The notes beneath the pieces are model-generated. The model searched no databases, was not told the origin of the DNA, and saw only the letters and a program-made list of their open reading frames with translations. This document shows positions 3,728-27,562 of a stretch of DNA of 64,000 nt, piece after piece. Location of the stretch: positions 744,001 to 808,000 of the forward strand of contig NZ_AP017372.2 in NCBI RefSeq assembly GCF_002356555.2. The letters are read 5' to 3'. The stretch's first letter is position 1. Every line of letters starts with the position of its first letter. Source of the DNA: Halorhodospira halochloris. Its GTDB lineage: Bacteria > Pseudomonadota > Gammaproteobacteria > Nitrococcales > Halorhodospiraceae. The position numbers and the translations under genes were made by a program.

Positions 3728-3882
3728 AGGCGCCCTTAGGACGTCCCCTGAGCCAATTGGTTGCCCCGGCGTGGAGGACGCCGTGACTCCATCCCTGGAG
3801 GCTTCATGGCGCCATCCCTGGCGCCAAGACCTCCACACTCGGGGCAGCCAATTGGCCTCAGGGGAAGGTTTCAGGGGCTCCT
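3728..3882 (+). repeat. Palindromic core-and-arms element, copy 1
   Basis: Copy of a dispersed element between the divergent iorA and fccA genes. The left arm begins AGGCGCCCTTAGG and ends GTGGAGG. The core of about 52 bp begins ACGCCGTGACTCC and ends GGCGCCAAGA. The right arm starts CCTCCAC and closes with GGCTCCT. The arms share CCAATTGG and the flanking GAG/CTC but are not perfect complements, so this copy looks decayed. The remainder of the 440-bp gap (3561-4000) holds AT-rich sequence that must contain the fcc promoter; I could not place its boxes securely. Confidence 0.85.
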
Positions 3883-4000
3883 TGGTCTATCCCAATTTGG
3901 GTATAAAGATATGCTTTTCCTAGAGTGAATATTAGGCTAAAGTGCTATCAGGGAGTGTTTTAATGATAAATATCAATAATACAGGAGGGGAGTGGCGTTT

Positions 4001-6744: not shown

Positions 6745-6875
6745 AACAACATCCTGATTGGTTATGGGGATCCCTGATAGGCGATTATAGTGCGGTACTG
6801 GGCGCCTATAAAAACTTCCCGCTATTGTGGGCGTCGCCAGATTATCTAGAAAAAGTGGTCGGTTGAGGAGCAGTG

Positions 6876-9662: not shown

Positions 9663-9720
9663 GGAGCCGTCATTCTATCAAAAATTGAAAGCGCAGTTTT
9701 TTGCACAGTACCACACAGCA

Positions 9721-9749
9721 TTGACTTGTTTCGCTCAAGGTACTACCTT
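9721..9749 (+). promoter_or_regulatory. Candidate sigma-70 promoter of the Cascade operon
   Basis: TTGACT at 9721-9726, a 17-bp spacer and TACCTT at 9744-9749, about 60 bp before the small gene at 9810. A 17-nt segment (GCACAGTACCACACAGC, 9703-9719) abuts the -35 box. It is an imperfect copy (15 of 17) of 9613-9629, so the pair may be an operator. Confidence 0.45.
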
Positions 9750-9809
9750 ACCTCGTAGGCCGGTGCAGTAGTCCGCCGGAAGCAACCCAAAGCTAGTAGG
9801 TTTTAACGC

Positions 9810-9980
9810 ATGAATAGCAGGACTCGAAGTGATTGTACGGTAGAAACGCTGCTCAGGAAGATGGAGCGAGAGAAGGGTTTGCCCAAAGGGTCGGTCAAGG
9901 TAGTCAACCCAAATGGCAGGTCTGCAAGGGCTGACAAGACAATAGGAGCCCTGAGGCGGGACTATGGAGGTCTGGAATGA
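9810..9980 (+). CDS. Unrecognised 56-aa basic protein, translationally coupled to cse1
   Basis: Open frame ATG 9810 to TGA 9978-9980. The stop overlaps the cse1 start as ATGA, and the last codons contain the cse1 ribosome site, an arrangement typical of a real operon gene. The product is rich in Arg and Lys: it begins MNSRTRSDCTVETLLRKM, continues EREKGLPKGSVKVVNPNGR and ends KTIGALRRDYGGLE. I predict an N-terminal helix, a beta segment around SVKVVNP and a C-terminal helix. I do not recognise the family. Position within cas3-cse1 suggests a role in control of Cascade expression or a small defence-linked factor such as an antitoxin; this is only inference. The start has only a weak AGG upstream. 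Confidence 0.6.
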   Translation: MNSRTRSDCTVETLLRKMEREKGLPKGSVKVVNPNGRSARADKTIGALRRDYGGLE

Positions 9981-11617: not shown

Positions 11618-12222
11618 GCAGATCGAACATCAACTATCAAGTGCTGAGGGAGGCAGAGGCACGATCCTCGGTCTATCAATGGTGGCAGCGGGTTTCACGG
11701 GCCGTTGAGGCGGATGGAGAAGGTGGCCTTCCGGCGTTCTCCACGGCGGTACGCCCGGCCCTGCGCCGTGCCAAGACCCCGGATGACGCGCTGCTGACAG
11801 AGGGGTTCCGTCTGCTCTGGTTTGCGGTGCCGGATAACTTGAAGGCCCCTCGAAACATGCCCGCCTTGGGCTGTGTCGCGGCGGTGCTGGCCGAAGTCCG
11901 GGAGATGGATCAACAGAAGTCCTTTGCTGCCGCCATGGGCTCCCAGGTGGAGAAGACCGGGAAACCTCGTGTCAGCGAATTGCGCTTCCAGCAGCTGCAA
12001 CAGAGCCACGATCTCGAGGAGTTGCAGCGTCGCTTGCGCCGCGCCGTAGCTCTGCTCGGTAAAAAGGTTCACGTTCTCTCCCTGGCGGACAACATCATGC
12101 AATGGCACCGGGAGAAGAGTGGTCATCCCGACTACCGACCCGACAGACGGCTACCGGTTCGCTGGGCCACGGACTATTTCACTGAACTGGCGAGCTACCA
12201 GAAAGCCGCCGCTACGAATTGA
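11614..12222 (+). CDS. casB: Cascade small subunit Cse2 (CasB)
   Basis: Small alpha-helical subunit (202 aa) that forms a dimer along the Cascade belly and stabilises the R-loop. The sequence fits the Cse2 family: SVYQWWQRVSR near the start, LRRAKTPDDALLTEGFRLLWF in the middle, and the FQQLQQSHDLEELQRRLRRAV helix. ATGA overlap with casA. It ends 25 bp before cas7. Confidence 0.93.
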   Translation: MSRSNINYQVLREAEARSSVYQWWQRVSRAVEADGEGGLPAFSTAVRPALRRAKTPDDALLTEGFRLLWFAVPDNLKAPRNMPALGCVAAVLAEVREMDQQKSFAAAMGSQVEKTGKPRVSELRFQQLQQSHDLEELQRRLRRAVALLGKKVHVLSLADNIMQWHREKSGHPDYRPDRRLPVRWATDYFTELASYQKAAATN

Positions 12223-12247
12223 ATGCGCTGATACAAGGAGAAATACC

Positions 12248-13285
12248 ATGAGCACTTTCATCCAGCTGCACTTGCTGACTTCTTATCCCCCGGCCAACCT
12301 GAACCGGGATGATCTCGGCCGTCCGAAGACCGCCCGCATGGGGGGCGTCGATCGCCTGCGAGTCTCTTCCCAGAGCCTCAAACGGACGTGGCGAACATCG
12401 GAGCTGTTCGAGGATGCCTTGGTCGGTCATGTCGGAACGCGAACCAAGCGGCTTGGCACCGAAGTGTACGAGGCACTCACCGGAGCCGGCATCGCGGAGA
12501 AGAAGTCCCTGGAATGGGCGCGGGCCATCGCCAACGTCTTCGGGAAGATCCAGAAGTCTGGCACCGAAATTGAGCAGCTGGCCCACCTCAGCCCCGAAGA
12601 GCGTCAGGGTGTCGATGAACTGGTGGCGACCCTGATCCAGGAGCAGCGCGCACCGACCGAAGATGAGTTGAAGTTGTTGCGCAAGAACCCTCACGCGGCG
12701 GATATCGGCCTGTTTGGCCGCATGTTGGCCGCTCACCCTGCCTTCAATGTCGAAGCCGCTTGTCAGGTGGCCCACGCTATCACCGTCCATCCGGTGGCGG
12801 TGGAGGATGACTATTTCACGGCCGTAGACGACCTGAACTTTGGTGAGGAGGACATGGGCGCGGGGCATATAGGTGAGACCGGTTTCGCTGCGGGGCTTTT
12901 CTACAGCTATGTCTGCATCAACCGCGACCAGCTCATCGACAACCTGAGTGGTGACGTCGAGCTCGCTGATAAGGCCATCGCCGCCTTGACCGAGGCTGCC
13001 GTAAAGGTCTCGCCCAAGGGTAAGCAGAACAGCTTTGGGTCGCGGGCCTACGCCTCATATGTGTTGGTCGAAAAGGGCCGCCAGCAGCCACGCTCGTTGT
13101 CCGTCGCCTTCCTCAAGCCCGTTTACGGCCAGGATCAGGCGGGTACCGCCATCAAGGCGCTGGAAGGGCAAAGGGAGTCGTTCGAGAAGGTCTATGGGCC
13201 GTGTGCCGAGGGGCACTATGTCCTGAATGCGGTGGCGGGCGAAGGCAGCCTGGATGAACTGAAGGCATTCCTGGTGCAGAACTAG
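12248..13285 (+). CDS. cas7: Cascade backbone subunit Cas7e (Cse4, CasC)
   Basis: RAMP backbone protein (345 aa) that polymerises along the crRNA. It opens STFIQLHLLTSYPPANLNRDD and continues with the RMGGVDRLRVSSQSLKR segment characteristic of Cas7e; FGSRAYASYVLV and SLSVAFLKPV follow. A frame open from 12119 would add residues with no resemblance to the family. AAGGAG at 12235-12240 supports the ATG at 12248. Confidence 0.95.
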   Translation: MSTFIQLHLLTSYPPANLNRDDLGRPKTARMGGVDRLRVSSQSLKRTWRTSELFEDALVGHVGTRTKRLGTEVYEALTGAGIAEKKSLEWARAIANVFGKIQKSGTEIEQLAHLSPEERQGVDELVATLIQEQRAPTEDELKLLRKNPHAADIGLFGRMLAAHPAFNVEAACQVAHAITVHPVAVEDDYFTAVDDLNFGEEDMGAGHIGETGFAAGLFYSYVCINRDQLIDNLSGDVELADKAIAALTEAAVKVSPKGKQNSFGSRAYASYVLVEKGRQQPRSLSVAFLKPVYGQDQAGTAIKALEGQRESFEKVYGPCAEGHYVLNAVAGEGSLDELKAFLVQN

Positions 13286-13295
13286 GAGGTTGGCC

Positions 13296-14033
13296 ATGAA
13301 TTATCTGGTTTTCAGGCTTTACGGCCCTCTGGCGAGCTGGGGGGAAGCCGCTGTGGGGCCGACCCGTCCCTCAGCATCCTACCCGGGCCGTTCGGCCATT
13401 CTGGGTCTCCTCGCCGCCGCACTGGGTATCCGGCGAGAGGAAGAGGCGACGTTGGCACAATTGCGTGACAATGTGACGTTGGCGGTCAAGCAGTGCAGTG
13501 CGGGGACGCTCCTTCGTGACTATCACACAGCCCAGGTCCCAAGTCATGACAAAAAGGCGGTCTGGTTGACCCGCCGCGACGAGCTGGGGGTGGCCAAGGA
13601 TAAACTGAACACGATCCTTTCGGCTCGCGAGTACCGCAGCGATGGGTATTGGGTGGTGGCTATTCGGCTGTCCGATGAGGCGCCGTGGACACTGGATGAG
13701 ATGGCCGAGGCCCTGCGCCACCCTCGTTTTATGCTCTATCTCGGCCGCAAATCCTGCCCCTTGGCGGCACCATTGCACCCCCGTGTCGTTAGTGCCGGAG
13801 GCGTGCGTGAAGCGCTCTCGGAAGAATTCCCCGGGTTCACTGGATCCAAGATGGAGGATGACGAGAAGCGTCGGTTGGGAATTGACGCGGAGGTCAGCTT
13901 TGCGTGGGAAGGTGATGCCGGGGATATTCTGCCGCAGGAGACCCGCTATCCCTATGACGAGCCATTGCATCGAGGCCGATGGCAGTTTGCCTCACGCTCG
14001 GAGCATTGGCACCAGACGAGGGAGGAGTCGTGA
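13296..14033 (+). CDS. cas5: Cascade subunit Cas5e (CasD)
   Basis: RAMP protein (245 aa) that caps the crRNA 5' handle. The N-terminus YLVFRLYGPLASWGEAAVG and the R-P-S-YPGRSAILGLLAAALG block are signature Cas5e. AGGAGG at 13284-13289 overlaps the cas7 stop and places the start at ATG 13296, not at the TTG two codons earlier. The stop overlaps the cas6e start (TGATG). Confidence 0.95.
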   Translation: MNYLVFRLYGPLASWGEAAVGPTRPSASYPGRSAILGLLAAALGIRREEEATLAQLRDNVTLAVKQCSAGTLLRDYHTAQVPSHDKKAVWLTRRDELGVAKDKLNTILSAREYRSDGYWVVAIRLSDEAPWTLDEMAEALRHPRFMLYLGRKSCPLAAPLHPRVVSAGGVREALSEEFPGFTGSKMEDDEKRRLGIDAEVSFAWEGDAGDILPQETRYPYDEPLHRGRWQFASRSEHWHQTREES

Positions 14034-14734
14034 TGTTTCTCTCGCGTGTCCATATCAATCCCCAAGCGCTGACACCTAAGAACCTGATGCCGGTGCTGGA
14101 GGGTGACAGTTATCGTAATCATCAATTGCTGTGGCGACTTTTCACTGAAGAAGATGAGCGCCCCTTCCTGTTCCGCCAGGAGTTTGAGCATTCCTTTGAC
14201 TCATCGTCGGGCAAACCGCGAGGTCTGCCGCTTTTCTACGTCCTTTCTCGGGTGGAGCCGCAGGCCGATTCAGAGCTGTTCAGCTGTGAGGTGAAGTCGT
14301 TCGAGCCCAAACTGTCTGCGGGGCAGCAGCTGGCTTTCAAGCTGCGAGCCAATCCGGTGGTGGCGAAACGGGAAGAGGGCCGCAAGAACTCCCGCCACCA
14401 TGACGTGCTGATGGATGCGAAGCGGGCCGCCAAGGATAACGGTGTGACCGACAAGGTGGCCATTCGGTGCTACATGGACGAAGCGGCCCAGAGCTGGCTA
14501 GCCAACAAGGGCAGGTCCGAAAAGGCGGGTTACACACTCCAGAGCGCCCCCGAAGTCAGCGGCTATCAGCAGCATGTCCACCGGCGCAAGGGGCGTGACA
14601 TCCGTTTCAGCAGCGTCGATTTCCAGGGTATACTGACAGTGAACGATCCTGAGCGCTTCGCGCAATCCCTGGCAGAAGGTATTGGCCGTAGTCGCGCCTT
14701 TGGTTGCGGGATGTGGATGGTAAGGCGGGTATGA
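14033..14734 (+). CDS. cas6e: crRNA endonuclease Cas6e (CasE, Cse3)
   Basis: Cuts pre-crRNA at the base of the repeat hairpin and stays bound to the 3' end (233 aa). It starts MFLSRVHINPQ. The catalytic His is probably that in YRNHQLLWRLF near residue 29. The C-terminal Gly-rich motif GIGRSRAFGCGMWMV is typical of RAMP nucleases. The ATG at 14033 overlaps the cas5 stop; GGAGGAG lies directly upstream. The repeat of the adjacent array has the stem this family recognises. Confidence 0.95.
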   Translation: MFLSRVHINPQALTPKNLMPVLEGDSYRNHQLLWRLFTEEDERPFLFRQEFEHSFDSSSGKPRGLPLFYVLSRVEPQADSELFSCEVKSFEPKLSAGQQLAFKLRANPVVAKREEGRKNSRHHDVLMDAKRAAKDNGVTDKVAIRCYMDEAAQSWLANKGRSEKAGYTLQSAPEVSGYQQHVHRRKGRDIRFSSVDFQGILTVNDPERFAQSLAEGIGRSRAFGCGMWMVRRV

Positions 14735-14738
14735 GCCA

Positions 14739-15967
<1,229 letters not shown>

Positions 15968-16081
15968 CATTTTGATTTTTCATGGTTCTTTAAAAATCTG
16001 GCATTTTTGTCGAAGGCTGATTTTCTTGGTGCGAACGAGAGTTTTCGTTTTGGCCTTTTAAATCATCTTGTTATAGGAAGT
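15968..16081 (+). promoter_or_regulatory. CRISPR leader
   Basis: A 114-bp AT-rich stretch (TTTTGATTTTTCATGG, TTTAAAAATC, TTTTCGTTTTGG, TTTTAAATCATC, TTATAG) between cas2 and the first repeat. Position and composition match a type I-E leader: promoter of the pre-crRNA and, probably, the IHF-dependent integration site. The exact boxes were not assigned. Confidence 0.8.
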
Positions 16082-16692
16082 GCGTTCCCCGCGCCTGCGG
16101 GGATGAACCGCAGCGACAATTAACCGGCATTCCTGGCAAAATGCGTTCCCCGCGCCTGCGGGGATGAACCGCTCCGACGCTGCTCTCCTCAGCTTCGGCT
16201 TGGGCGTTCCCCGCGCCTGCGGGGATGAACCGGTAAGTACCCCGACGCGGAGCCGTCGCACTACGCGTTCCCCGCGCCTGCGGGGATGAACCGCGCGCTA
16301 ATGCACTGCTGGATTTGCAAACTGAGCGTTCCCCGCGCCTGCGGGGATGAACCGGAGCTTAGACGATGTGATGCGCGCTAATGCGCGCGTTCCCCGCGCC
16401 TGCGGGGATGAACCGCGCGTCTTTAGCCGCCGCCTCTGCGCCTTCTTGCGTTCCCCGCGCCTGCGGGGATGAACCGTCTCGGCTAACGTTTTCCTCATGC
16501 CTCGATCGGCGTTCCCCGCGCCTGCGGGGATGAACCGAGCGGCACGTTTACCATGCCCGAAGATGAAATGCGTTCCCCGCGCCTGCGGGGATGAACCGCA
16601 ATCTTAGCACTGTCAAGATCGACGGACTGGGCGTTCCCCGCGCCTGCGGGGATGAACCGTTGTGCCGAACCACCCGCCGAAGCGAGGGGCCG
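16082..16692 (+). CRISPR. Type I-E CRISPR array, leader-proximal part (10 repeats)
   Basis: Ten identical 29-bp repeats (GCGTTCCCCGCG...GGGGATGAACCG) at exact 61-bp intervals, first at 16082 and last at 16631, with 32-nt spacers. The tenth spacer occupies 16660-16691 and is followed by an IS3-family element. The repeat contains an inverted TCCCCGC/GCGGGGA stem. Being next to the leader, these are the youngest spacers. Spacers 4 (16294-16325) and 5 (16355-16386) overlap in sequence, and spacer 9 (16599-16630) overlaps spacer 12 of the second part. Confidence 0.99.
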
Positions 16693-16736
16693 TGTTCTGG
16701 TCAAATGATTTCGGACACCAATTTTAGCAGCGTACC

Positions 16737-17528
16737 TCAGCATACTTCCGCCGGGGCCAAGCCCTCCAAGCTGGTATGGCCGCGGCCAGCGTTGTATTCC
16801 CATTCAATAAATTGAGCTATGTCTTTGCTGGCATCATGAAATCCCTGGTAACGACAATGATCGGTCCATTCACTTTTGAGACTGCCGAAGAAACGCTCCA
16901 TAACCGCGTTATCCCAGCAGTTGCCCTTGCGGCTCATAGAGGCAATCATTCCTTCTTGTCGTAACCTATCTTGATAAATGGTGGATGCATATTGACTGCC
17001 GCGATCTGAATGATGCACCAGTCCGGGTTCCGGATTACAGCGTTCTATTGCCATTTCAAGAGCATCTAGAGTTAATTCTACACGCATATTATTGGCTATA
17101 GCCCAGCCGACAATTTGGCGATTGTAAAGGTCCATAACTGCAGCCAAGTATATCCATCCACTAAGGGTCCAAATTGCAGTTATATCAGCAACCCAAACGC
17201 AATTTGGCTCCCTGGTTTCAAACTGTTGCTGCAATAGGTTTGGCGCACATTTATAGCCATGCTTACTATCCGTTGTTACCTTAACTCGTCTTCTTTGGCG
17301 GCACTCTACGCCCGCTTCACGCATTAATCTGCGAGCCTTGTATCGCCCAACTTGGTAGCCGCGTTTGCATAGCTCCTGGGACATCCGCCGACTCCCGAGC
17401 CGCTGACGCTTCTTCTCATGCAAATCTTTGACTAGCTCGATTAGCTCATGGCGGTAAGCGTCAAATTTGTCTTTCTTTAGCCAATCGTAATAACCGCTCC
17501 TCGAAGCTTTTAAAACTCGGCACATCAA
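16737..17528 (-). CDS. IS3-family transposase, OrfB (DDE catalytic part)
   Basis: Integrase-core transposase. Catalytic acidic residues lie in VWVADITAIW, LVHHSDRGSQY and CWDNAVMERFFG, with the rve domain and an N-terminal helix-turn-helix region (SRSGYYDWLKK). The open frame continues upstream without stop into the overlap with orfA. OrfB is therefore probably made as an OrfAB fusion by -1 frameshifting at the A-AAA-AAG run in the orfA 3' end, rather than from its own start. Confidence 0.95.
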   Translation of the reverse strand: MMCRVLKASRSGYYDWLKKDKFDAYRHELIELVKDLHEKKRQRLGSRRMSQELCKRGYQVGRYKARRLMREAGVECRQRRRVKVTTDSKHGYKCAPNLLQQQFETREPNCVWVADITAIWTLSGWIYLAAVMDLYNRQIVGWAIANNMRVELTLDALEMAIERCNPEPGLVHHSDRGSQYASTIYQDRLRQEGMIASMSRKGNCWDNAVMERFFGSLKSEWTDHCRYQGFHDASKDIAQFIEWEYNAGRGHTSLEGLAPAEVC

Positions 17529-17572
17529 GGAAATCGAGTGGTTTGCCTTCTCCGCCTCTATAAACTGATACT

Positions 17573-17887
17573 TCAGTTCTGCTCGTTGGCGAAGAAGGCT
17601 GCCGCCTTTTTTAATATCGCCCTTTCTTCTTGCAGCTTACGGTTTTCTTCCCGCAGCCGACGGTTTTCCTCTTCAAGCTCTGCAGAGGGTTTTCGGGCTT
17701 GCCCGTGGTTTGTTGAGTTATTCTGAAACTCTTCAGGATATAACTCCCTCTCCCATCGATAAATCATGCCGCGAGTAAGATCTAAACGACGAGCTACCTC
17801 TGTCTTGGTATAGCCCTGTTCGCGATGCATGTTAACTGCCATTGTCTTGTACTGCTGGCTATACTTTTTGGGTGACTTGCTTTTCAT
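17573..17887 (-). CDS. IS3-family transposase, OrfA (DNA-binding part)
   Basis: Helix-turn-helix protein (104 aa): TKTEVARRLDLTRGMIYRWE is the DNA-binding part. A leucine-zipper-like coiled coil (SAELEEENRRLREENRKLQEE) follows, ending in ILKKAAAFFA. The ILKKA codons contain A-AAA-AAG, the classic -1 slippery site of IS3 elements. AGGAGG placed 9 nt before the ATG at 17887 decides this start over an upstream extension. Confidence 0.93.
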   Translation of the reverse strand: MKSKSPKKYSQQYKTMAVNMHREQGYTKTEVARRLDLTRGMIYRWERELYPEEFQNNSTNHGQARKPSAELEEENRRLREENRKLQEERAILKKAAAFFANEQN

Positions 17888-17957
17888 CTTTGAACACCTC
17901 CTCTCCAAGATTAGCGTATCTCATTGGAGGTGTCCGTTACCATTGGACCACAACACC

Positions 17958-19796
17958 GCGTTCCCCGCGCCTGCGGGGATGAACCTCGGACTCGACCTCC
18001 TCCATCGAGCCGTAACTCGCGTTCCCCGCGCCTGCGGGGATGAACCGGTATGAGCGACAGCAATCTTAGCACTGTCAAAGCGTTCCCCGCGCCTGCGGGG
18101 ATGAACCGGCACAGACGACTACTGAATCTTACGGTTTCCAGCGTTCCCCGCGCCTGCGGGGATGAACCGATAATGCAAGACATGCTAACCGATGCAAATC
18201 CGCGTTCCTCGCGCCTGCGGGGATGAACCGATATCCTTAACGCCCTCCGAGACTACTAACCAGCGTTCCCCGCGCCTGCGGGGATGAACCGGTCGGGGCT
18301 GTCTTAGTGAGGCCCGACCGGACGCGTTCCCCGCGCCTGCGGGGATGAACCGTACCCTCATCTTCCGATGAGACTAACATATCCGCGTTCCCCGCGCCTG
18401 CGGGGATGAACCGGACGACGAAACCATTCGCGCTAGCGAAGAATAGCGTTCCCCGCGCCTGCGGGGATGAACCGAGTTGGGTGCTGAGCTTGTCCCTGCA
18501 ATGCTTGCGTTCCCCGCGCCTGCGGGGATGAACCGCGTTCAGCTGCTCGCGGACACGCTCTTCGTCAGCGTTCCCCGCGCCTGCGGGGATGAACCGCTGC
18601 CCATGGAATATGAGCCGGATCGCCATTGGCGTTCCCCGCGCCTGCGGGGATGAACCATCCCGCGTCTATACCGACAAGAGTTTGGGCGCGCGTTCCCCGC
18701 GCCTGCGGGGATGAACCGTTTGCCGCGGAACACCCTGAAGCCACGCCAGAGCGTTCCCCGCGCCTGCGGGGATGAACCGATAACCGGCGGCGGTGAGCCG
18801 TCAGATGAGTGGCGTTCCCCGCGCCTGCGGGGATGAACCGAGTTTAGACCCGAGCGAGTACGGACAGCAGGCGCGTTCCCCGCGCCTGCGGGGATGAACC
18901 GGTTGAGTTGCAAACCACCGACCTGCCTACAGAGCGTTCCCCGCGCCTGCGGGGATGAACCGTTCGCCGGTAGAAAGCTGATTTTCAAGCGCGACGCGTT
19001 CCCCGCGCCTGCGGGGATGAACCGTATCACTGGTTGTACGGCGCACCGCTGCTTGCGCGTTCCCCGCGCCTGCGGGGATGAACCGATTACGGCACGGGGC
19101 GATCAGGGAAACGGGTCGCGTTCCCCGCGCCTGCGGGGATGAACCGGCGCAACAGTTCATCACCGTATGACGTGTACGGCGTTCCCCGCGCCTGCGGGGA
19201 TGAACCGCCCTGGCGCCCGGACGATGCCCGTGTCTATCAGCGTTCCCCGCGCCTGCGGGGATGAACCGATGAACCGATCACCAGCCTTGTCCCACGGCAA
19301 GCGTTCCCCGCGCCTGCGGGGATGAACCGTCCTTGAGTCTTTGTGGAGATACACTAATGGAGCGTTCCCCGCGCCTGCGGGGATGAACCGGCGATGGAGC
19401 TGTTTGGCGCGCGCTACTTTAGGCGTTCCCCGCGCCTGCGGGGATGAACCGGGCCGATGGCAAGTGCGGATAGAGGATTTGAGGCGTTCCCCGCGCCTGC
19501 GGGGATGAACCGAAAGGCTGGTTAGGTGGCATCAGAGCCATTAAGCGTTCCCCGCGCCTGCGGGGATGAACCGTCCGGTAGGGGCATAGGACGTAAAGCG
19601 AACCCGCGTTCCCCGCGCCTGCGGGGATGAACCGTGTTCAGCACAGCCTTGTTGCTTGAACTCTCGGCGTTCCCCGCGCCTGCGGGGATGAACCGTCATC
19701 GGTAGTCATTAAATCTGCTACTCGTATGCGTTCCCCGCGCCTGCGGGGATGAACCGATTGATATACAGTAAACCCGCCTGGTTCTCCGGCGTTCCC
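17958..19796 (+). CRISPR. Type I-E CRISPR array, leader-distal part (30 repeats plus a truncated one)
   Basis: Continuation of the same array after the IS. Thirty repeats run from 17958 to 19756, with 32-nt spacers except one of 33 nt (18963-18995). Variants: repeat 11 (17958) ends in T and repeat 22 (18629) in A instead of G, and repeat 15 (18202) has TCCTCGCG. After the last full repeat and a 32-nt spacer (19757-19788), the first 8 bases of another repeat (GCGTTCCC, 19789-19796) appear in phase and then give way to a transposase-like gene. The older end of the array has therefore been cut off. Total for both parts: 40 full repeats and 40 spacers. Confidence 0.99.
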
Positions 19797-20542
19797 TGGA
19801 TTGGCGCGGTGCCAACGGACGGCTCTGCGATGTCAGCTGCCGGGTCGCGATGCTGCGACTGCACGAGCAGGGGAAGATCACCCTACCTCCATCCCGGCTG
19901 CGCAAGCGCCGTCGGCGCGCCACGTTTCCCCCGACGCCGGCAACCGACCCCCAGCCGCTTCTCAATACGCCGGTCAACATGATGCCAAAACCGACCTTTC
20001 ATATCGTCCAGGGCAATGCGGCGCAATCACGGTGCTGGAATGAGTACATAGCCCGCTATCACTACCTAGGCTACACGCCATTAGACGGTCACCAGATCCG
20101 CTATAACGTCTACGCTGGAGAACAACTCGTCGCGCTGCTCGGCTTCGGAGCCAGCGCCTGGAAGCTCGCCGACCGTGAGCGGTTTATCGGCTGGAGCAGC
20201 GAGCAACGCGAGCGCAATCTATCCCTTGTGGTCAACAATACACGCTTTTTGATCCTGCCCTGGGTGCAGGTGCGTGGGCTTGCCTCAAAAATCCTGGGGC
20301 TTGCAGCGCGGCAATTGCCGCTAGATTGGCAGCAGCGTTACGGCTTTCAACCGGTGCTGCTTGAGACCTTTGTCGAATGGCCCCGCCACACCGGGACCTG
20401 CTACAAGGCGGCCAACTGGCAGTGGGTGGGTCGCACAACCGGGCGGGGCAAGAAGAGCACAAGCCACAAGCAAAGGCTGCCGACCAAGGACATCTGGCTC
20501 TACCCGCTCAGGCGTGACTTCGCTAATCGGCTTTGTAGCTGA
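19797..20542 (+). pseudogene. DUF4338 (DruA-like) protein, 5'-truncated
   Basis: The reading frame from DWRGANGRLCDVSCRVAML through FHIVQGNAAQSRCWNEY, YHYLGY, LLGFGASAWKLADRERFIGW and LETFVEWPRHTGTC to YKAANWQWVGRTTGRGK is the DUF4338 family, found in transposase-like genes and in the Druantia defence protein DruA. Family members begin with about 50 more residues. Here the frame enters directly from the CRISPR junction at 19797, and the only ATG (19850) is inside the conserved region. I therefore call it a 5'-truncated remnant. The 3' end looks complete. Confidence 0.7.
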
Positions 20543-20624
20543 GATAGTTACCTGCTCACCGAAACTTTACGAACTCCGGTGACAAGGCCTAGGCAAGCTC
20601 GCCAACCCATTGTACATTGTTCGT

Positions 20625-21014
20625 ATGGACATCGTCGCTGACACTAATATCTTCCTCGCGGTTGCACTGAATGAACCAGACAGAGACCGCATCATCACGC
20701 TGACGGCCGACGCGTCAGCGTTAGCACCTGAAATTTTGCCCTATGAGATCGGCAACGCCCTTTCTGCGATGGTGAAGCGGCGTCAACTTTCGTATTCAGA
20801 GGCTCTGGAGGCCGAGAAGTCAGTCCGACGGATTCCGGTGCGGTTAGTGTCCACGGATATACGTAGCTCGCTGCAGCTTGCTCTGGATCAAGATATTTAC
20901 GCCTATGACGCATATTTCCTGCAATGCGCTCAGGCACTATCGTGCCCGTTATTGACCCTTGATCGTCGTATGAGGCAGGTGGCGAGAGAACTTGGGATCA
21001 GGGTACTGGAGTAA
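20625..21014 (+). CDS. vapC: PIN-domain toxin, VapC type
   Basis: PIN-fold ribonuclease (129 aa). The acidic residues expected for metal binding are D6 (VADTNIF), E41 (LPYEIGNAL), D95 (AYDAYFL) and D113 (LTLDRRM). It probably cleaves tRNA or rRNA when freed from its antitoxin. ATG at 20625 is chosen over an upstream TTG, which would add residues absent from the family. The toxin gene comes before the antitoxin, the less common order. Both lie just before an attC-like site and so probably form an integron cassette. Confidence 0.88.
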   Translation: MDIVADTNIFLAVALNEPDRDRIITLTADASALAPEILPYEIGNALSAMVKRRQLSYSEALEAEKSVRRIPVRLVSTDIRSSLQLALDQDIYAYDAYFLQCAQALSCPLLTLDRRMRQVARELGIRVLE

Positions 21015-21019
21015 ACGTG

Positions 21020-21238
21020 ATGAAGGTATTTACATACTCTGAAGCTCGGCAGAACTTGTCGAAATTGCTGGTCCTGGCCCAGCGCGAAGAGGTAGAAATC
21101 AGGAGAAAGGACGGTAGCACGTTTTCTCTCCGTGCGAAGCCCAGGGAATCGAAGTCGCCGTTTGACGTGCCTGGAGTAAGTACAACCGCCACAACGTCAG
21201 ACATACTTGAGGCAGTCCGGGAATCCCGGGAGAGCTAA
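21020..21238 (+). CDS. Phd/YefM-family antitoxin
   Basis: Antitoxin of 72 aa for the preceding PIN toxin. The N-terminal KVFTYSEARQNLSKLLVLAQ is the Phd/YefM DNA-binding fold. The C-terminal DILEAVRESRES is the likely toxin-binding helix. It starts 5 bp after vapC (a GTG one codon earlier is possible; GGAG at 21008-21011). Its TAA stop is part of the first box of the attC-like site. Confidence 0.85.
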   Translation: MKVFTYSEARQNLSKLLVLAQREEVEIRRKDGSTFSLRAKPRESKSPFDVPGVSTTATTSDILEAVRESRES

Positions 21239-21292
21239 CAAGGCCATTCAGCCGACGCTCGTTCCTCGCGCGGCTGATTTGCGACGTTAGAA
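21233..21292 (+). other. Integron attC-like recombination site A
   Basis: 60-bp imperfect palindrome. Outer boxes AGCTAAC (21233-21239) and GTTAGAA (21286-21292) pair as CTAAC/GTTAG. Inner boxes TCAGCCG (21248-21254) and CGGCTGA (21271-21277) pair perfectly, and an unpaired A (21255) is followed by CGC/GCG. That single extrahelical base is the polarity mark of attC sites, and the sequence runs close to class 1 integron attC sites such as aadA1. The site begins within the antitoxin stop codon, as cassettes usually do. Confidence 0.8.
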
Positions 21293-21299
21293 CGATATG

Positions 21300-21834
21300 G
21301 TAGATAACAATCACCAGAGAGTCGGCGCAGGCCGCGGTCCTCGCAGTGCCGGGCCCAGGCATATACATCGATCAGCCCAAGGGGTGTGCCCTCGGTGCTG
21401 AAGGCCATGGTGTCGTGGACAATCAGCCCCTGCGCCCCGTCGGCTCGGCTGCCGATCGGCCCGAGGCCCTCGGTGATCGTCGGAGCCGAGTAGTTGAGCG
21501 TGGTGGTGTCCTGCACGGCCAGCACGACGTCGTGGTGCCGGCAGCGCCCGGCGCTGGCCTGCGCGTGCGAACGGATCAGCTGCTGCATGCTCGCCCTCGG
21601 ATTCGCCAGAAACCGATAGGCTGCCTTCGTGCGCGCTCGTGTGCCACAGGCCTCGGGTGTATCGGCTTGGCTGTGCGCGGCGAAGTCACGGGCGACGGTG
21701 ATCAGCCGCTCCTGCAGGCGCCGGTCGCCGCAGCGGGCGTGGGCGAACTCGTGACGGGCCCAATCGTCGATGGGCAGCTCGGCTGTTGTTGGCTGCCAAA
21801 ATCCGTACATATTTGGCGGAGGATTCAAGAACAC
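21300..21834 (-). pseudogene. IS4-family transposase, N-terminal fragment
   Basis: About 175 residues of a Tn5/IS50-type transposase: the DNA-binding domain (WARHEFAHARCGDRRLQERL, TKAAYRFLANPRAS) and the start of the DDE domain (VLAVQDTTTLNYS, GLIVHDTMAFSTEG, GLIDVYAWARHCED). The catalytic domain then ends abruptly near the attC-like site, so it is a 3'-truncated, inactive remnant. It separates the toxin-antitoxin cassette from the next cassette. Confidence 0.85.
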
Positions 21835-21905
21835 GCATATCTACTGGGTAGCTAAAAGCTAAGACTAGCTATCACGCACTGTGTGGATTTATGGTCGCTG
21901 CTCAG

Positions 21906-21958
21906 GTGGCAGCTTTCGTCTGGAATCAGTGGCAGGCTTCGTATGTAATGGGTGGCAG
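21906..21958. repeat. Three GTGGCAG boxes, probable IS21-type terminus
   Basis: GTGGCAG occurs at 21906, 21929 and 21952, exactly 23 bp apart, with similar text between (CTTTCGTCTGGAATCA, GCTTCGTATGTAATGG). Multiple short repeats of this kind are found at IS21-family ends. No istA or istB remains, so it would be a solo end. Family assignment is from memory of the pattern. Confidence 0.45.
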
Positions 21959-22050
21959 CGGATAGGTGCCTTAGCCTTACGCAGGACTATGACGACCTCG
22001 TTGACGAACATGAGCGGCTCCGGCGCACCTACCAAAACCTATCCGATTGA
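21952..22050 (+). pseudogene. Possible 3' fragment of a cassette gene
   Basis: A 32-codon frame ending LTQDYDDLVDEHERLRRT then YQNLSD and TGA, polar and helical in character, lies 58 bp before the next attC-like site. It emerges from the IS21-like terminus, so it may be the surviving C-terminus of a cassette gene cut by insertions. Length alone does not make it significant. Confidence 0.25.
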
Positions 22051-22107
22051 GTTGCATATGCGGACTCTTTGGACGAGGCTCGGGACTGTGCACTGTAGCG
22101 CGCTGAC

Positions 22108-22179
22108 CATTAGCTGGAGCTGACCGGGTAACGCCGCCTGGCGGCGCCTTCACCCGGTGGTTCAGCTCAGCCGTTAAGA
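22108..22179 (+). other. Integron attC-like recombination site B (long form)
   Basis: Right box GTTAAG (22173-22178). Inner stem AGCTGA (22118-22123) pairs with TCAGCT (22162-22167), with ACCGGGT (22123-22129) against ACCCGGT (22152-22158) and an asymmetric bulge. An apical hairpin CGCCGCC/GGCGGCG (22132-22146) caps it. The left outer box is poor (ATTAGC). The GGTGGTTCAGCTCAGCCGTT ending resembles longer chromosomal attC sites. It lies 26 bp before the start of the next gene. Confidence 0.6.
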
Positions 22180-22204
22180 GCCCAGATCAAAAAAAGGAGA
22201 CGAG

Positions 22205-23125
22205 ATGCCACGTTATTGGGTGATTGCCCCCATAGATTCTCAGCCGGCTGACTTCTTCGAGAAGGTGTGGCGCTTTGATATCGAAAAGGAGGTCATTTCA
22301 ATTGGCTGGTCTCAGTTCGGTGATGTGTCCGGCATGAGTCGTGACGAGCTGGCAAAAGTCGTGGCCCACCACTACCCTGAGAAGCCACAACAGACCAAAG
22401 GCTTGATCACTAATATGGTGTGGTCATTTTGCCACAAGATAGAGCCTGGCGATGTCGTTATAGCGCGGCGTGGAAGAAAGATACTCGCAGCCGTTGGTAC
22501 AGTCAGAGAAAAAGCATTCTACAAGGCTGGGAAAAATCCTGATGTAGATCACCGTCTTTTCCTTCCTGTGACATGGCACCAAGAACCCAGAGACAAGGAC
22601 TTTGGTGCGGTAGTGTTTCCCATGCCTACCTTGGCAGAAATTGATGAAACGCAATACCAGAGCCTTGTCGAGGGGTCGGGGCTAGAAGTTGCCAAGAGCG
22701 AGGATGGGGAGACTTACGAGAATCAAGCAGAGTTTGTTCTGGAGAAGTACCTCGAGGAATTTATCGTCTCCAACTTCTCCGGAATATTTAAGGGTGAACT
22801 CGAGGTATATGTCGACGAGGACGGTAATACTGGGCAGCAGTACACCACGGACATTGGTTCTATTGATATTCTTGCGGAAGATCGCCGCAATAATTCGCTT
22901 GTCGTTATTGAGCTAAAAAAGGGCCGCCCTTCGGACCAAGTGGTAGGGCAAATCATGCGATACATGGGATGGGTCAAAAAAAACCTTGCGCTAGAAGACC
23001 AGAAGGTACGAGGTCTTGTGATTTGCCGCGGGGAAGATCAGAGGCTCAGCTATGCGCTAGAAATGGTCGATCATGTTGATATCCGGTACTACAAAGTTTC
23101 GTTTTCCCTTACGGAGCGCCCTTAA
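22205..23125 (+). CDS. Putative modification-sensing nuclease: PUA/EVE-like domain plus NucS-like PD-(D/E)XK domain
   Basis: Two-domain protein of 306 aa. Residues 3 to about 145 (YWVIAPIDS, VISIGWSQFG, GDVVIARRGRKILAAVGTV) have the order of strands seen in PUA/EVE/ASCH-like nucleic-acid readers. Residues about 170-306 resemble the C-terminal NucS/DUF91 nuclease: D221 (GSIDILA), E236 and K238 (VVIELKKGRPSDQVVGQI) and Arg/Tyr of MRYMGW form a PD-(D/E)XK site. It is flanked by attC-like sites, and its stop codon lies in the downstream one, so it fits a single-gene integron cassette. AAGGAG precedes the ATG. I infer a restriction- or repair-type role against modified or foreign DNA; no partner methylase is near. 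Confidence 0.75.
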   Translation: MPRYWVIAPIDSQPADFFEKVWRFDIEKEVISIGWSQFGDVSGMSRDELAKVVAHHYPEKPQQTKGLITNMVWSFCHKIEPGDVVIARRGRKILAAVGTVREKAFYKAGKNPDVDHRLFLPVTWHQEPRDKDFGAVVFPMPTLAEIDETQYQSLVEGSGLEVAKSEDGETYENQAEFVLEKYLEEFIVSNFSGIFKGELEVYVDEDGNTGQQYTTDIGSIDILAEDRRNNSLVVIELKKGRPSDQVVGQIMRYMGWVKKNLALEDQKVRGLVICRGEDQRLSYALEMVDHVDIRYYKVSFSLTERP

Positions 23126-23177
23126 CAAAACGCTCAACCGGGCGCTCGTACCTCGCGCCGGTTAGCTCGGCGTAGCT
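23120..23177 (+). other. Integron attC-like recombination site C
   Basis: Left box CCTTAAC (23120-23126) contains the stop codon of the nuclease gene. Inner boxes AACCGG (23136-23141) and CCGGTT (23158-23163) pair perfectly; the unpaired G at 23142 is followed by CGC/GCG, as in site A. The loop CGCTCGTACCTCGCG differs from that of site A by one base, so both sites share recent ancestry. The right box is degenerate (GCGTAGC), as in the last site of an array. Confidence 0.75.
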
Positions 23178-23220
23178 TGCGGGGTAGAAGTCCCTGTCGG
23201 GCAAGGGTTCGCTAGATCAG

Positions 23221-23335
23221 ATCAAGGTGAGTTTGGATACCACGGCGGATGGCGCCTCTCAGGTGGCGGTGGCTAGCGAGGAAGTTGCAAGGCTTGCTTC
23301 GTCTTTGCAAGATCGGGTTCGGAGCTTTCGGGTAT
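23221..23335 (+). pseudogene. Methyl-accepting chemotaxis protein, C-terminal remnant
   Basis: The frame reads IKVSLDTTADGASQVAVAS and then EEVARLASSLQDRVRSFRV, the pattern of the extreme C-terminus of chemotaxis receptors (alternating Ala/Glu helix ending in a Phe-Arg tail). No upstream receptor sequence remains and the frame runs on into unrelated residues. The rest of 23178-23487 shows no other feature I can support. Confidence 0.45.
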
Positions 23336-23487
23336 TGCGGTTTTTGGCAGACGGTTGCGATCTAGGGTATGGTGGAATTGTGCGCCCTCGTCGATGGCGT
23401 AGACCACCGTGGTCTCGCAAACCACGTGCAACACACTCACTGATAATTGATTGACAGAACAATGAGCATAATGACAATCCGGAAATC

Positions 23488-23928
23488 ATGATAAGCGCGT
23501 GGAATATCTGGTTAGCTTCGGCCATTGGCCTGTTGTTAGTGGACCTTCTGCTCTTCGGTGGGGCAAGCGGAGTGCTGCTGGCAATGGCCGGAATGGCTCT
23601 GTTCGGCATGGGCGCGGCCTTGTTAGGTTTGTCATGGGAATTCCAGATCCTTAGTGCCGCCCTTTCAGGCGTTCTGTTGATCCCCCTGGCACTAAAAGCA
23701 TTGAAGAAGCTAACCCCGGGGGAGCTATCTCAAAGCCTTGATGATCCGCGCCTTCGAGGGCAGCAATTCAAAGTTTATACCGACAGTGGTGGCCAGGCGC
23801 GTGTTACTGTTTTCGGCGATGAGTTTATGGCTCGCCCATCAAGCATTGATCAATCATTAAAAGATGGCAGTCTAGTGCGTATTGTTCGTTTTGAAGGCAA
23901 TACGGCAATAGTAACCCCCAATGATTAG
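23488..23928 (+). CDS. NfeD-like membrane protein
   Basis: Short NfeD (146 aa). Transmembrane helices span about residues 5-75 (IWLASAIGLLLVDLLLFG, MAGMALFGMGAALLG, LSAALSGVLLIPLAL). An OB-fold domain (RGQQFKVYTDSGGQARVTV, GSLVRIVRFEGNTAIV) follows in the cytoplasm or periplasm. It starts 18 bp before a stomatin-like gene, the standard nfeD-SPFH pairing that organises membrane microdomains. It is similar to YbbK/YbbJ of E. coli. Confidence 0.88.
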   Translation: MISAWNIWLASAIGLLLVDLLLFGGASGVLLAMAGMALFGMGAALLGLSWEFQILSAALSGVLLIPLALKALKKLTPGELSQSLDDPRLRGQQFKVYTDSGGQARVTVFGDEFMARPSSIDQSLKDGSLVRIVRFEGNTAIVTPND

Positions 23929-23945
23929 GTAGTGAGAATCATTTC

Positions 23946-24938
23946 ATGAACAGTGATGTCCCAATACCCGAGATCACCACGCTGCTGATTGTTCTGTTAG
24001 CAGTCCTGCTTATCATTATAATAATCAAAGGGCTGGTTATAGTGCCTCAGCGACATGCCATGGTGATTGAACGCTTGGGCCGTTATCATCGCACCCTTAA
24101 CGCTGGCTTGAATCTAATCATCCCGATCCTTGACCAACCACGACCGATAACCATCGTCCGCTACCGGGATAACCAGAAGACAATCAACACAGAAAAAAAG
24201 ATCGATCTGCGCGAGGTGGTGCTTGATTTCCCCAAGCAGGAAGTTATCACCAAGGATAATGTCGGTGTACGTATAGACGGCGTGCTCTATTACCAGATAA
24301 TGGACGCCCAAGCGGCTATTTACGGGGCAGAAAATCTAGTTTTAGCTGTACAGACCTTAGCTCAAACATCGCTACGTTCAGAAATCGGCCGCATGGAACT
24401 CGATCAGATATTCGAGTCGCGTCAAGAGATAAATGCTCGTCTGCAGAACACCATGGATGATGCAGGCAACAAATGGGGGGTAAAAGTAAACCGCGTGGAG
24501 ATCCGGGATATCGATATTCCTGACGATATCCGCGAGGCCATGAATAAGCAAATGGCTGCCGAGCGCGCCCGAAGAGCTGAAGTCAGGGAGGCAGAGGGAT
24601 ATAAGCAAGCGGAGATTCTCAAGGCAGAAGGTGATAAGGAGGCGGCGGTACAGCGTGCGGAAGGTGAAAAGCGCGCTATACAACAGATTCTGGAAGCCGC
24701 CGCGGGTACAGAAGGATTAGAGGCGCGTGATGCCATGCGCTATCTTATTGCCCAGGAGTACATGGAGACATTGCCAAAAGTGGCTCAAGAAGGTGAGCGT
24801 GTCTTTATTCCGCTGGAGGCTACCAGCCTCATGGGATCTGTCGGTGGTATTAGAGAGTTGCTTGGCCCCACGACTGGTGCGGCTGCCGCATCGAGTTCTT
24901 CCTCATCGGGAGCAGGCAGTGGGGGGAGTGGTGGATAA
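23946..24938 (+). CDS. qmcA: SPFH/stomatin-family membrane protein (QmcA-like)
   Basis: An N-terminal membrane anchor (TTLLIVLLAVLLIIIIIKGL) is followed by the SPFH domain (VPQRHAMVIERLGRYHR, GLNLIIPILD) and a long coiled coil rich in Ala and Glu (AAERARRAEVREAEGYKQ, AEILKAEGDKEAAVQRAEG). The tail is Ser/Gly rich (330 aa). It forms large membrane oligomers with its NfeD partner encoded just upstream. Its role in quality control of membrane proteins is known for relatives only. Confidence 0.9.
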   Translation: MNSDVPIPEITTLLIVLLAVLLIIIIIKGLVIVPQRHAMVIERLGRYHRTLNAGLNLIIPILDQPRPITIVRYRDNQKTINTEKKIDLREVVLDFPKQEVITKDNVGVRIDGVLYYQIMDAQAAIYGAENLVLAVQTLAQTSLRSEIGRMELDQIFESRQEINARLQNTMDDAGNKWGVKVNRVEIRDIDIPDDIREAMNKQMAAERARRAEVREAEGYKQAEILKAEGDKEAAVQRAEGEKRAIQQILEAAAGTEGLEARDAMRYLIAQEYMETLPKVAQEGERVFIPLEATSLMGSVGGIRELLGPTTGAAAASSSSSSGAGSGGSGG

Positions 24939-25016
24939 GTCTTTAAGTTATCTTCCCAAAACCTTACATCAACTAATAGCCGAGGAAGGAAGGAAGAGCG
25001 GAAGTCGCAGAGCTGA

Positions 25017-25352
25017 TTGGTAAGATTCGGGGCCTTCCATCAATTGCTCAAGCTCAAAGCGGAAGAAGCTGGTGCTTGGGCGGTGGAGGCCCCGACGCGG
25101 CAGATCAAGCCCTCGCAGACCTGCCACGCATGCGGGCAGCAAGAGAAGAAACCGCTCAGTCAACGCTGGCACAGCTGCCCTTGCGGAACGTCCTGTTCAC
25201 GGGACGAGAACGCCGCTCGGGTGCTGTTGGCTTGGCTGGAGCGGAGTTTATCCGGCCGGGAACCGGCCGATGCGTGGAGGGAGGTCAGACCGGGTCATCC
25301 TCTGGATGAATCGGCACTCCCGTCGAAGCGCGAAACTCACGCCGTAGCGTAA
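25017..25352 (+). pseudogene. IS200/IS605 TnpB (OrfB), C-terminal remnant
   Basis: Only the last part of TnpB remains: FGAFHQLLKLKAEEAGAWAV, then the zinc finger (PSQTCHACGQQEKKPLSQRW and CPCGTSCSRDENAARVLL) with the RDENAA stretch of the RuvC site. A stop precedes the fragment in frame, so the nuclease domain is lost. Its 3' flank could still hold the guide-RNA end of the element; no hairpin was confirmed. Sequence between 24939 and 25016 shows nothing else. Confidence 0.8.
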
Positions 25353-25400
25353 GCTTGGCGGGAGTAGTTCATACATAGGCAGCCGACTCATCCCGGTGAA

Positions 25401-25673
25401 ATGCTGGTAGAGGAGTTCCTGCGTCCAATGCAAATTACGCAGCGCGAACTAGCAGATGCCATTCATGTGCCTTATCAGAGGGTTAATGAGCTAGTTAATC
25501 AGAAGCGTGGTATTACGCCCAGCACCGCGCTTCGTTTGGCTCGATTCTTTGGTGTTTCGGCTGATTTCTGGTTGAACCTTCAGGTCAGGTGGGATCTTTA
25601 TAAGACACAACAAGTTGAAAAGGACGAGTTGGCGGAGATTCAAGATGTCACTCATTGGCAAAAGATGGCTTAA
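25401..25673 (+). CDS. higA: HigA-family XRE antitoxin, without visible partner
   Basis: HigA/VapI-type antitoxin (90 aa) with a helix-turn-helix (TQRELADAIHVPYQRVNELV, PSTALRLARFFGVSADFWLN). HPGE, usually inside the N-terminus, is encoded immediately before the ATG (codons from 25389), but an in-frame TAG at 25368-25370 prevents an earlier start. The original N-terminus has thus been lost or altered. No higB toxin lies on either side; a TnpB remnant is upstream. The stop codon begins a TTAAC...GTTATG pair that weakly resembles attC. Confidence 0.8.
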   Translation: MLVEEFLRPMQITQRELADAIHVPYQRVNELVNQKRGITPSTALRLARFFGVSADFWLNLQVRWDLYKTQQVEKDELAEIQDVTHWQKMA

Positions 25674-25786
25674 CAATGCAATGTACGCGACAAACTCGTG
25701 ATAGCGACGTTATGGGGAAAGGCGCCTCTGTCAGTAGCCTGGTTGTCTTGAGTGGTGGGCAAAAGCGACAACTATCATAGCTTGGT

Positions 25787-25815
25787 TTCTTTAAAAGCCC
25801 GCGTGGCGCGGGCTT
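25787..25815 (-). terminator. Terminator of ssrA
   Basis: On the minus strand, AAGCCCGCG, a 3-nt loop, CGCGGGCTT and then TTAAAG form a 9-bp stem with a short T-rich tail about 35 nt after the tmRNA CCA end. Confidence 0.75.
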
Positions 25816-25850
25816 GGGGGGAGTTTGTGGCACATCTTGTCACGTTTATT

Positions 25851-26209
25851 TGGTGGAGGCGGCGGGAATCGAACCCGCGTCCGCAGGAGCTACGCCCTCG
25901 GATCTACATGCTTAGCCGGATCTATTCTGTTTAACTACCGGGTGCCCGACCGGCAGGGCGTCCCGATAGCGAGCCCGTTTGGGGTTCGCACCAGAGGACC
26001 GGACCTATCCCCTGGCACTAGCCTGTGTCTATGACTGCTCGGCGACCGGCACAGGCACCGACCGTGAGCAGCTAGCGGGTGTTACGCCGCTAGAGCGTAG
26101 TTGTCGTCGTTGGCAACTATTTTAAGCTTACAGCCTGTTTTACGAGGTAGACTGTCACCTCGGCATGCACCTCGGGTTTCGCGACCCGCGTCGAAGCCAT
26201 GTCGCCCCC
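25851..26209 (-). ncRNA. ssrA: tmRNA
   Basis: Transfer-messenger RNA that rescues stalled ribosomes with SmpB, encoded close by. The 5' end (GGGGGCGACATGGCTTCG) and the 3' end (TTCGATTCCCGCCGCC then TCCACCA, CCA encoded) form the alanyl-tRNA-like acceptor with G-U pairing. The tag frame at 26082-26114 on the minus strand reads ANDDNYALAA and stop, one residue different from E. coli ANDENYALAA. Upstream at about 26216-26245 are TTGAAG, 17 bp and TATATT as candidate promoter. Length about 359 nt. Confidence 0.96.
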
Positions 26210-27076: not shown

Positions 27077-27562
27077 TCAAACCTTATGTTTTAGTAGGCG
27101 CTCGCGCTGTCTTTGCCAGTCTTTTTCCTTCTTATCGGCGCGCTTGTCTTGCTTCTGCTTGCCCTTGGCTAGGCCTATCTCCAGCTTTGCCTTGCCCCGT
27201 TTCCAGTAGAGTTGTAGTGGGACAACTGTGTATCCAGCGCGATCCACAGAACCAGCCAGCCGACTTATTTCACGCCGGTGCAGCAATAACTTGCGAGTGC
27301 GGGTCGGGTCAGGGCGGATATGTGTCGAGGCGGTGCTCAGCGGAGTTATGTTGCACCCGACTAGCCACGCCTCTCCTCGTCGTACTAAAACATAGCTCTC
27401 GGTGAGATTAACGCGCTTCTCGCGCATGGACTTGACTTCCCAGCCCTCAAGAGCGAGGCCAGCCTCTAAGCGCTCTTCGATGAAATAGTCAAATCCCGCC
27501 TTGCGGTTTACGGCTATAACATTCCCGCCGCCTGCCTTGCTTTTTCCTGCTTTCTTACTCAC
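27077..27562 (-). CDS. smpB: SsrA-binding protein SmpB
   Basis: tmRNA chaperone (161 aa): [39 protein letters not shown] and [12 protein letters not shown] are the conserved beta-barrel, and the basic tail ([20 protein letters not shown]) enters the ribosomal mRNA channel. The GTG start gives [11 protein letters not shown]. It lies about 0.9 kb from ssrA on the same strand, with the DUF2231 gene between. Confidence 0.95.

Follow-up and report, generated by a model that had tools for sequence, protein, structure and literature searches.

We describe here a candidate single-protein, modification-dependent (type-IV-like) restriction endonuclease of Halorhodospira halochloris that is carried as an integron gene cassette, a reading to which we give a probability of roughly 70%. 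Its gene, P0001, lies in the 64,000-nucleotide stretch of DNA that was analyzed as a whole (hereafter the window; positions 744001-808000 of a single-contig genome of 2.83 Mb), and this genome holds one match to it. In line with the original prediction, which had proposed a modification-dependent restriction enzyme or a similar anti-phage protein, support comes from fold, homology and context: two predicted folds, a catalytic set that is conserved, a reader domain with homologs in McrB-like and Mrr-type proteins, a cassette shared with a distant genome, and a sister clade frequently set in type I restriction-modification (R-M) loci. From these we infer a DNA target, base flipping, dimerization, modification dependence and phage protection.

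The open reading frame was confirmed as real, intact and conserved, and an AGGAG motif directly precedes it (Table 1). An AlphaFold model of the 306-aa protein contains two domains (mean pLDDT 85.1, pTM 0.53), each of which appears usable, while the packing between them is left open by the pTM. The model was compared to the PDB with Foldseek, and the matches were then re-ranked by VIA-align, which is not an independent search. At E ≤ 0.001, Foldseek gave three matches, all NucS/EndoMS, followed by YTH domains starting at 1.3e-3; the EVE and VcaM4I matches come from the VIA re-ranking. A PUA/EVE-like reader joined to a NucS-like PD-(D/E)XK domain had been predicted, with structure prediction as the proposed check and a fold lacking a nuclease site as the outcome that would speak against it; both domains are present in the model, and so is the site.

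Table 1. Features of the reader-nuclease gene and its surroundings (window coordinates)
Feature	Coordinates	Strand	Basis
Reader-nuclease gene P0001, 306 aa, ATG start	22205..23125	+	Open ORF; PADLOC PDC-S02 1.8e-54
PUA-superfamily (EVE/YTH-like) reader domain, residues 1-158	22205..22678	+	Structure match; homology to McrB-like / Mrr_cat proteins
NucS/EndoMS-type PD-(D/E)XK nuclease domain, residues 175-300	22727..23104	+	Pfam NucS_C, structure, conservation
Integron gene cassette (after G of GTTAAG to end of attC-like site)	22174..23172	+	Sole block shared with Thioalkalivibrio halophilus (L018)
attC-like site of the nuclease cassette	23121..23178	+	Left core box overlaps stop codon; right core box altered relative to GTTAGC in L018
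attC-like hairpin of the preceding cassette, ends GTTAAG, left core box not clear	22106..22178	+	Bottom-strand fold
attC of the PIN/Phd toxin-antitoxin cassette	21234..21291	+	Three attC scanners, intact; fold
PIN toxin (20610-21014) and Phd/YefM antitoxin (21017-21238), neighboring cassette	20610..21238	+	Pfam PIN 6.9e-11; PhdYeFM 3.3e-5

The C-terminal half is the more readily recognized. It scores 36.6 bits with Pfam NucS_C (PF01939; cut-off 24) and 30.4 bits with YhcG_C, the latter under its cut-off of 32.5. Structurally, it aligns with EndoMS (5gke; VIA Z 13.1 over 112 residues, rmsd 2.8) and with NucS (2vld; VIA Z 12.9). In a full-length alignment of the window protein and 74 relatives, from which truncated relatives had been dropped beforehand, all 75 sequences share E180, D221, E236, K238, Q249, R252 and Y253 without exception; D221, E236 and K238 are the residues that the original prediction had singled out. 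Both the fold and this invariance thus provide what is expected of a type IV enzyme on its cutting side, a nuclease domain with complete catalytic residues.

The modified-base sensor domain expected on the other side is supported by fold and homology. By VIA, the N-terminal domain aligns with the EVE protein PH1033 (2hd9; Z 10.7, 112 residues, rmsd 2.3), YTHDF2 (4rdo; Z 9.8) and VcaM4I (6yex; Z 9.6, 118 residues, rmsd 3.3), which bears out the predicted reader. Residue 35 is tryptophan and position 106 aromatic in 14/14 sequences of the close clade, the window included. At the sequence level, Pfam gave no EVE (PF01878) match and no convincing match of any family for residues 1-158, and hhalign of the reader profile against an EVE alignment of 10 sequences returned a probability of 0.7% over a 27-column fragment only. 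We therefore regard the reader as having a predicted EVE/YTH fold without being a canonical (Pfam) EVE domain in sequence.

When used alone as a query, the N-terminal domain found nine plasmid records at E ≤ 0.01, four of them strains of Leptolyngbya boryana. Five are labeled AAA family ATPase or ATPase (the four L. boryana included), two DUF3578 protein, one restriction endonuclease, and one is unannotated. Four of these loci were examined. The proteins of Leptolyngbya (pLBX, L008) and Hymenobacter (L117) are McrB-like, with AAA_5 matches of 80.6 and 87.2 bits and a McrC-family gene adjoining in both. In Paracoccus (L119), the stretch matched by the reader is fused to Mrr_cat. The Microvirga protein (L118) carries, in order, MrcB_N, a Pfam EVE domain (residues 197-332), the reader-matched stretch (about 350-489) and an AAA_5 match just under threshold (21.8 of 22 bits); since EVE and the matched stretch adjoin and do not overlap, they are distinct domains. 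This McrB-like protein (2454-4196 of its locus), with MrcB_N, EVE and the present reader in tandem, suggests that several readers can sit on one protein. An hhalign comparison of the 14 close N-terminal domains to the Leptolyngbya segment (E 4e-15, probability 98.5%) lined up the motifs RYW, IGW, NxxWxF and RG; identity to this segment is 29% over 162 columns. By sequence comparison, McrB-like proteins and a Mrr-type endonuclease thus contain homologs of the reader, a domain of predicted EVE/YTH fold that is found with three kinds of restriction engine.

The gene had also been placed in a mobile cassette, and here our comparison makes the term specific: the cassette is an integron gene cassette, a unit shared with an otherwise distant genome. 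Between window positions 19001-26000 and a 20.9-kb stretch of Thioalkalivibrio halophilus (L018), there is a single shared block (22172-23177 and 9968-10974, respectively; 1007 bp, 90.7% identical), which begins at GTTAAG and finishes inside the attC right core box, so that a single ORF between core sites has moved as one unit. The RecN proteins of the two organisms are 48% identical and the nucleases 91%; therefore, the cassette moved horizontally. In T. halophilus, an attC with both core boxes and a stem stands at the 3′ end of the ORF (10917-10973), further attC sites lie before and after the gene, and the next cassette encodes a BrnT/CopG-like toxin-antitoxin pair, both members scoring under their Pfam cut-offs.

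This identification leans mainly on the shared block and less on attC scanning. Fold energy is not exceptional for the T. halophilus attC (z -1.30, 27/200 shuffles as good) and, alone, not significant for the 3′ site in the window (z -0.68, 40/200); it is more distinctive for the toxin-antitoxin attC (z -2.12, 4/200) and for the hairpin of the preceding cassette (z -4.85, 0/200). The 3′ site and this hairpin were missed by all four scanners used, and the first scanner overlooked all three sites around the gene. A second was too strict, finding 0 or 1 of the 16 close relatives. The third (R ≥ 4, L ≥ 8), written after the strict one had failed, found sites in 7/16 close relatives against 0.3 expected from shuffles, one of them (L025) doubtful in that its start is not at the stop codon, and in 4/61 distant relatives against 1.6 expected. 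At two stricter settings, it found 4 and 5 of the 16 close relatives (0.0 and 0.1 expected) and 3 of the 61 distant ones each time (1.4 and 0.7 expected). The frameshifted gene of L029, with its searched stretch set by hand, gave no hit. The fourth scanner gave four plus-strand hits in T. halophilus against 0.3 expected, one of which is within the gene and probably false, and nothing at the gene in L019, L020 and L022-L024. Independent of the scanners, the stop codon lies in TAAC, the left core box, in 11/16 close versus 4/63 distant loci (p 5e-7), and GTTARR occurs within 70 bp upstream in 7/15 versus 8/63 (p 0.007), by Fisher tests that ignore relatedness.

An integron integrase was sought with TIGR02249, and nothing in the H. 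halochloris genome exceeded the cut-off (best 83.7 of 265 bits); clusters of attC sites without an integrase are a known kind. Five of the 16 genomes of close relatives have such an integrase over the cut-off. At L022, a decayed integrase (8852-9754) ends 246 bp 5′ of the nuclease gene, with TIGR02249 fragments at 28571-29471 of contig C71, which we take as the contig of L022 because its N6_Mtase match coincides with the HsdM match of that locus and the integrase C-terminus is readable there. A further ORF of L022 (8394-8867), picked by eye as a piece of integrase, had no NCBIfam match and was dropped. Integrons are said, by Kieffer et al. and Darracq et al., to carry defense genes.

The surroundings are those originally described, a toxin-antitoxin pair and CRISPR. 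The antitoxin match amounts to 24 bits, under its cut-off of 29.8. Genes for cas proteins (about 6873-15665), which gene order and repeat suggest by eye to be of type I-E, are followed by a CRISPR array (about 16080-19700) with a 29-nt repeat, a 61-nt period and 37 copies in the family. The array is broken at about 16630-17955 by an insertion, IS3-like by eye, and two spacers (starting near 16599 and 18048) have about 18 nt in common. Because the cassette moves on its own, its proximity to CRISPR says little and is probably incidental. Between the array and the toxin-antitoxin cassette lies a 230-aa DruA-like ORF (19850-20542; Pfam DruA 134.9 bits over a partial profile, Mom sub-threshold), and between the two cassettes, on the minus strand, an apparently truncated transposase DNA-binding region (21235-21834; Tnp_DNA_bind 1.7e-18, 199-aa ORF). 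Farther along, a tmRNA (25851-26209, minus strand; Rfam 221.9 bits) is found downstream of nfeD/band-7 genes and near an ORF (27077-27562) that looks smpB-like by eye.

To place the gene within its family, we sampled the loci of the best 80 of 365 relatives. Sixteen of these (L018-L033, 48-91% identical) are referred to here as close, four of them partial or broken (L029, L031, L032 and L033), and 63 (L035-L097) as distant, 61 of which entered the third attC scan (all except L055 and L086); L034 belongs to neither group. In a FastTree phylogeny, a branch with support 100 splits 14 free-standing members, the window clade, from 61 others; the tree is midpoint-rooted and does not give the order of the two lifestyles. 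Members of the window clade are often cassette-borne and, by record labels, come from eight phyla (Pseudomonadota, Planctomycetota, Thermodesulfobacteriota, Myxococcota, Acidobacteriota, Chloroflexota, Hydrogenedentota and Kryptoniota). Relatives 50-63% identical occur in seven phyla besides Pseudomonadota, mostly in metagenome-assembled genomes in which binning errors are possible, and attC features are frequent among them.

The sister clade lives differently. Genes for HsdM or HsdR are found nearby on the same strand in 37/63 of its loci versus 1/16 in the close group; one close locus, L022, has a HsdM match of 26% identity about 4.8 kb off. On the same strand and within 5 kb downstream, hsdR is present in 25 of the 49 distant loci with enough sequence versus 0 of 12 close ones, often only a few hundred bp away; hsdM is upstream in 29/48 versus 0/9. 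For these counts, the genes of a single Acinetobacter plasmid served as tblastn queries, a search that can miss divergent genes. The recurrent order in the sister clade is hsdM, (hsdS), the NucS-type gene, hsdR and a SprT-like metallopeptidase gene; this last, YgjP/SprT-like and 3′ of hsdR, accompanies the R-M genes in 26/63 loci. On an Acinetobacter pittii plasmid (L002, 6972-7907), a second candidate of the embedded sort, an Abi_2 gene, stands beside the NucS-type gene in a type I R-M operon. Overall, the gene is rare: 2 of the 59 genomes in the relatives search match, namely that of the window and one with a partial C-domain match (residues 219-287), leaving no full-length match in the other 58, and class-wide 9 of 369 genomes match at 1e-10, that of the window included. 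Viral contigs, searched for close relatives only, and phage records contained no relative.

Type IV enzymes work without a cognate methylase, and the cassette, as originally claimed, contains no methylase ORF. In the H. halochloris genome, we found no match to PF00145 (E ≤ 1e-15) or to PF02086 or PF01555 (E ≤ 1e-3), and one to PF02384, at 920351 and outside the cassette. A genome so poor in methylases would permit a modification-dependent nuclease. Among the 16 genomes of close relatives, 9 carry a PF00145 (5mC-type) and 12 a PF02384 (adenine-type) methylase. Because such methylases are frequent there, the mark is unlikely to be generic 5mC or 6mA; a hypermodified base of phage type, or a narrow sequence context, would fit better.

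Several other explanations deserve consideration. PrrC is a guard in type IC operons, and the present protein might likewise guard other defense systems, killing the cell or cutting DNA once a phage disables restriction rather than on reading a modified base. The many sister-clade members in hsd loci, often with hsdR shortly downstream, would suit such a role; yet the window clade retains both domains without a downstream hsdR (none in 12 loci), and the reader has homologs among the domains of McrB-like and Mrr-type proteins, making a guard improbable. An abortive-infection nuclease acting on RNA, in which the EVE/YTH-like domain would read RNA or tRNA and the C-terminal domain cut RNA, seems to us less probable again. 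EVE, YTH and PUA domains do bind RNA too, and the structural matches include YTH domains bound to m6A RNA. Against this, the nuclease domain is closest to the DNA-cutting NucS/EndoMS, a protein of plasmid pTK7 with only this C-domain in common adjoins a DNA methylase, and relatives of the reader are found in McrB-like and Mrr_cat proteins.

That same methylase neighbor on pTK7 could point to an orphan type II endonuclease, which lost its methylase and cuts unmodified sites. This we consider very unlikely, as such cutting should kill a host with the methylase complement described above, there is no methylase in the cassette, and the reader has the fold of modification sensors. Just as little probability attaches to a part in DNA mismatch repair, as an endonuclease of the NucS/EndoMS pathway. 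Pfam NucS_C and the best fold match of the nuclease domain both name this family, but the NucS equivalog models are far from satisfied (NF003270, 40.6 of 216 bits; NF002876, 23.4 of 252), the fold match of the N-domain differs, and the distribution is patchy. On the equivalog score and the N-domain, we rejected a role in NucS-type repair.

A modification-dependent restriction enzyme thus remains our preferred explanation, and it lends itself to a concrete mechanism. The EVE/YTH-like domain would recognize phage or plasmid DNA entering the cell by flipping a modified base into an aromatic pocket, for which W35 and Y106 are candidates on grounds of conservation and of EVE/YTH motifs. Reading of the base may position or release the NucS-like PD-(D/E)XK domain, which is probably dimeric and would make a metal-dependent cut in DNA through D221, E236 and K238. 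Since the host is proposed to lack the recognized mark, it would need no methylase.

Enzymes of this kind have been anticipated. Fusions of EVE to PD(D/E)XK and to McrB were predicted to be type IV enzymes, and standalone EVE proteins were linked to type I R-M systems (PMC7641849). Our protein appears to have the logic of these fusions in common, a modified-base reader plus a nuclease; it differs in that Pfam does not detect its reader as EVE and its nuclease is of NucS type, and the accessible text of that paper contains no mention of "NucS", "DUF91", "integron" or "cassette". VcaM4I, an EVE-HNH enzyme cutting 5mC/5hmC DNA with a pocket of P24, W82 and Y130 (PMC7897488), is alike in the fold and N-terminal position of its reader and in its length of about 300 residues, but has HNH in place of PD-(D/E)XK. 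NucS/EndoMS resembles the C-terminal domain and differs in N-domain, context and NCBIfam score, while in the McrBC system of Leptolyngbya a reader like ours is coupled to an AAA+ motor and the McrC-family gene is separate. CMoRE (GIY-YIG) is described as a single-gene modification-dependent enzyme with another nuclease (PMC12923530). The immigration control region of E. coli is a precedent for a type I system that has type IV enzymes next to it (PMC12707154).

The closest cataloged entry is PDC-S02 of PADLOC-DB v2, a single-gene phage defense candidate, the profile of which is matched by 14/14 members of the window clade. The best profile covers residues 46-303 of our protein (47-306 of 308 profile positions) and omits the first 45 residues, where the window clade has a motif of its own, ISIGW. 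In PMC10855318, where embedding within known defense systems is what the candidate list rests on, 39 of 100 P. aeruginosa strains were predicted to carry PDC-S02, 59% of those resistant; our gene, in contrast, is a stand-alone cassette. As far as the accessible text goes, both this paper and PMC11719660 merely list PDC-S02. A literature search on PDC-S02, on NucS with type I restriction and defense, and on NucS with the EVE domain (best 20 of 257 matches; bioRxiv and most subscription papers outside its scope) yielded no experimental study among the matches listed.

While the kind of enzyme had been predicted, new findings are the clade on integron cassettes, the passage of its cassette between distant genomes, and the divide between this clade and a sister clade often in R-M loci. 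It is conceivable, if on the doubtful side, that this is an uncharacterized, integron-dispersed one-gene branch of restriction enzymes in which a NucS-type nuclease is paired with a new reader of the PUA superfamily, that type I R-M operons either released this branch or captured it, and that the DNA modification it recognizes is read by none of the known restriction enzymes.

In conclusion, the PDC-S02 candidate family gains a concrete proposed mechanism and named residues to mutate, and emerges as a family with two lifestyles, one in type I restriction loci and one as a single-gene integron cassette across phyla. In type I loci, the nuclease could act on phages that evade type I cutting by means of modified DNA. 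As a compact candidate restriction enzyme travelling by integron, it is directly testable, and a new modified-base reader could serve as a reagent for DNA modification.
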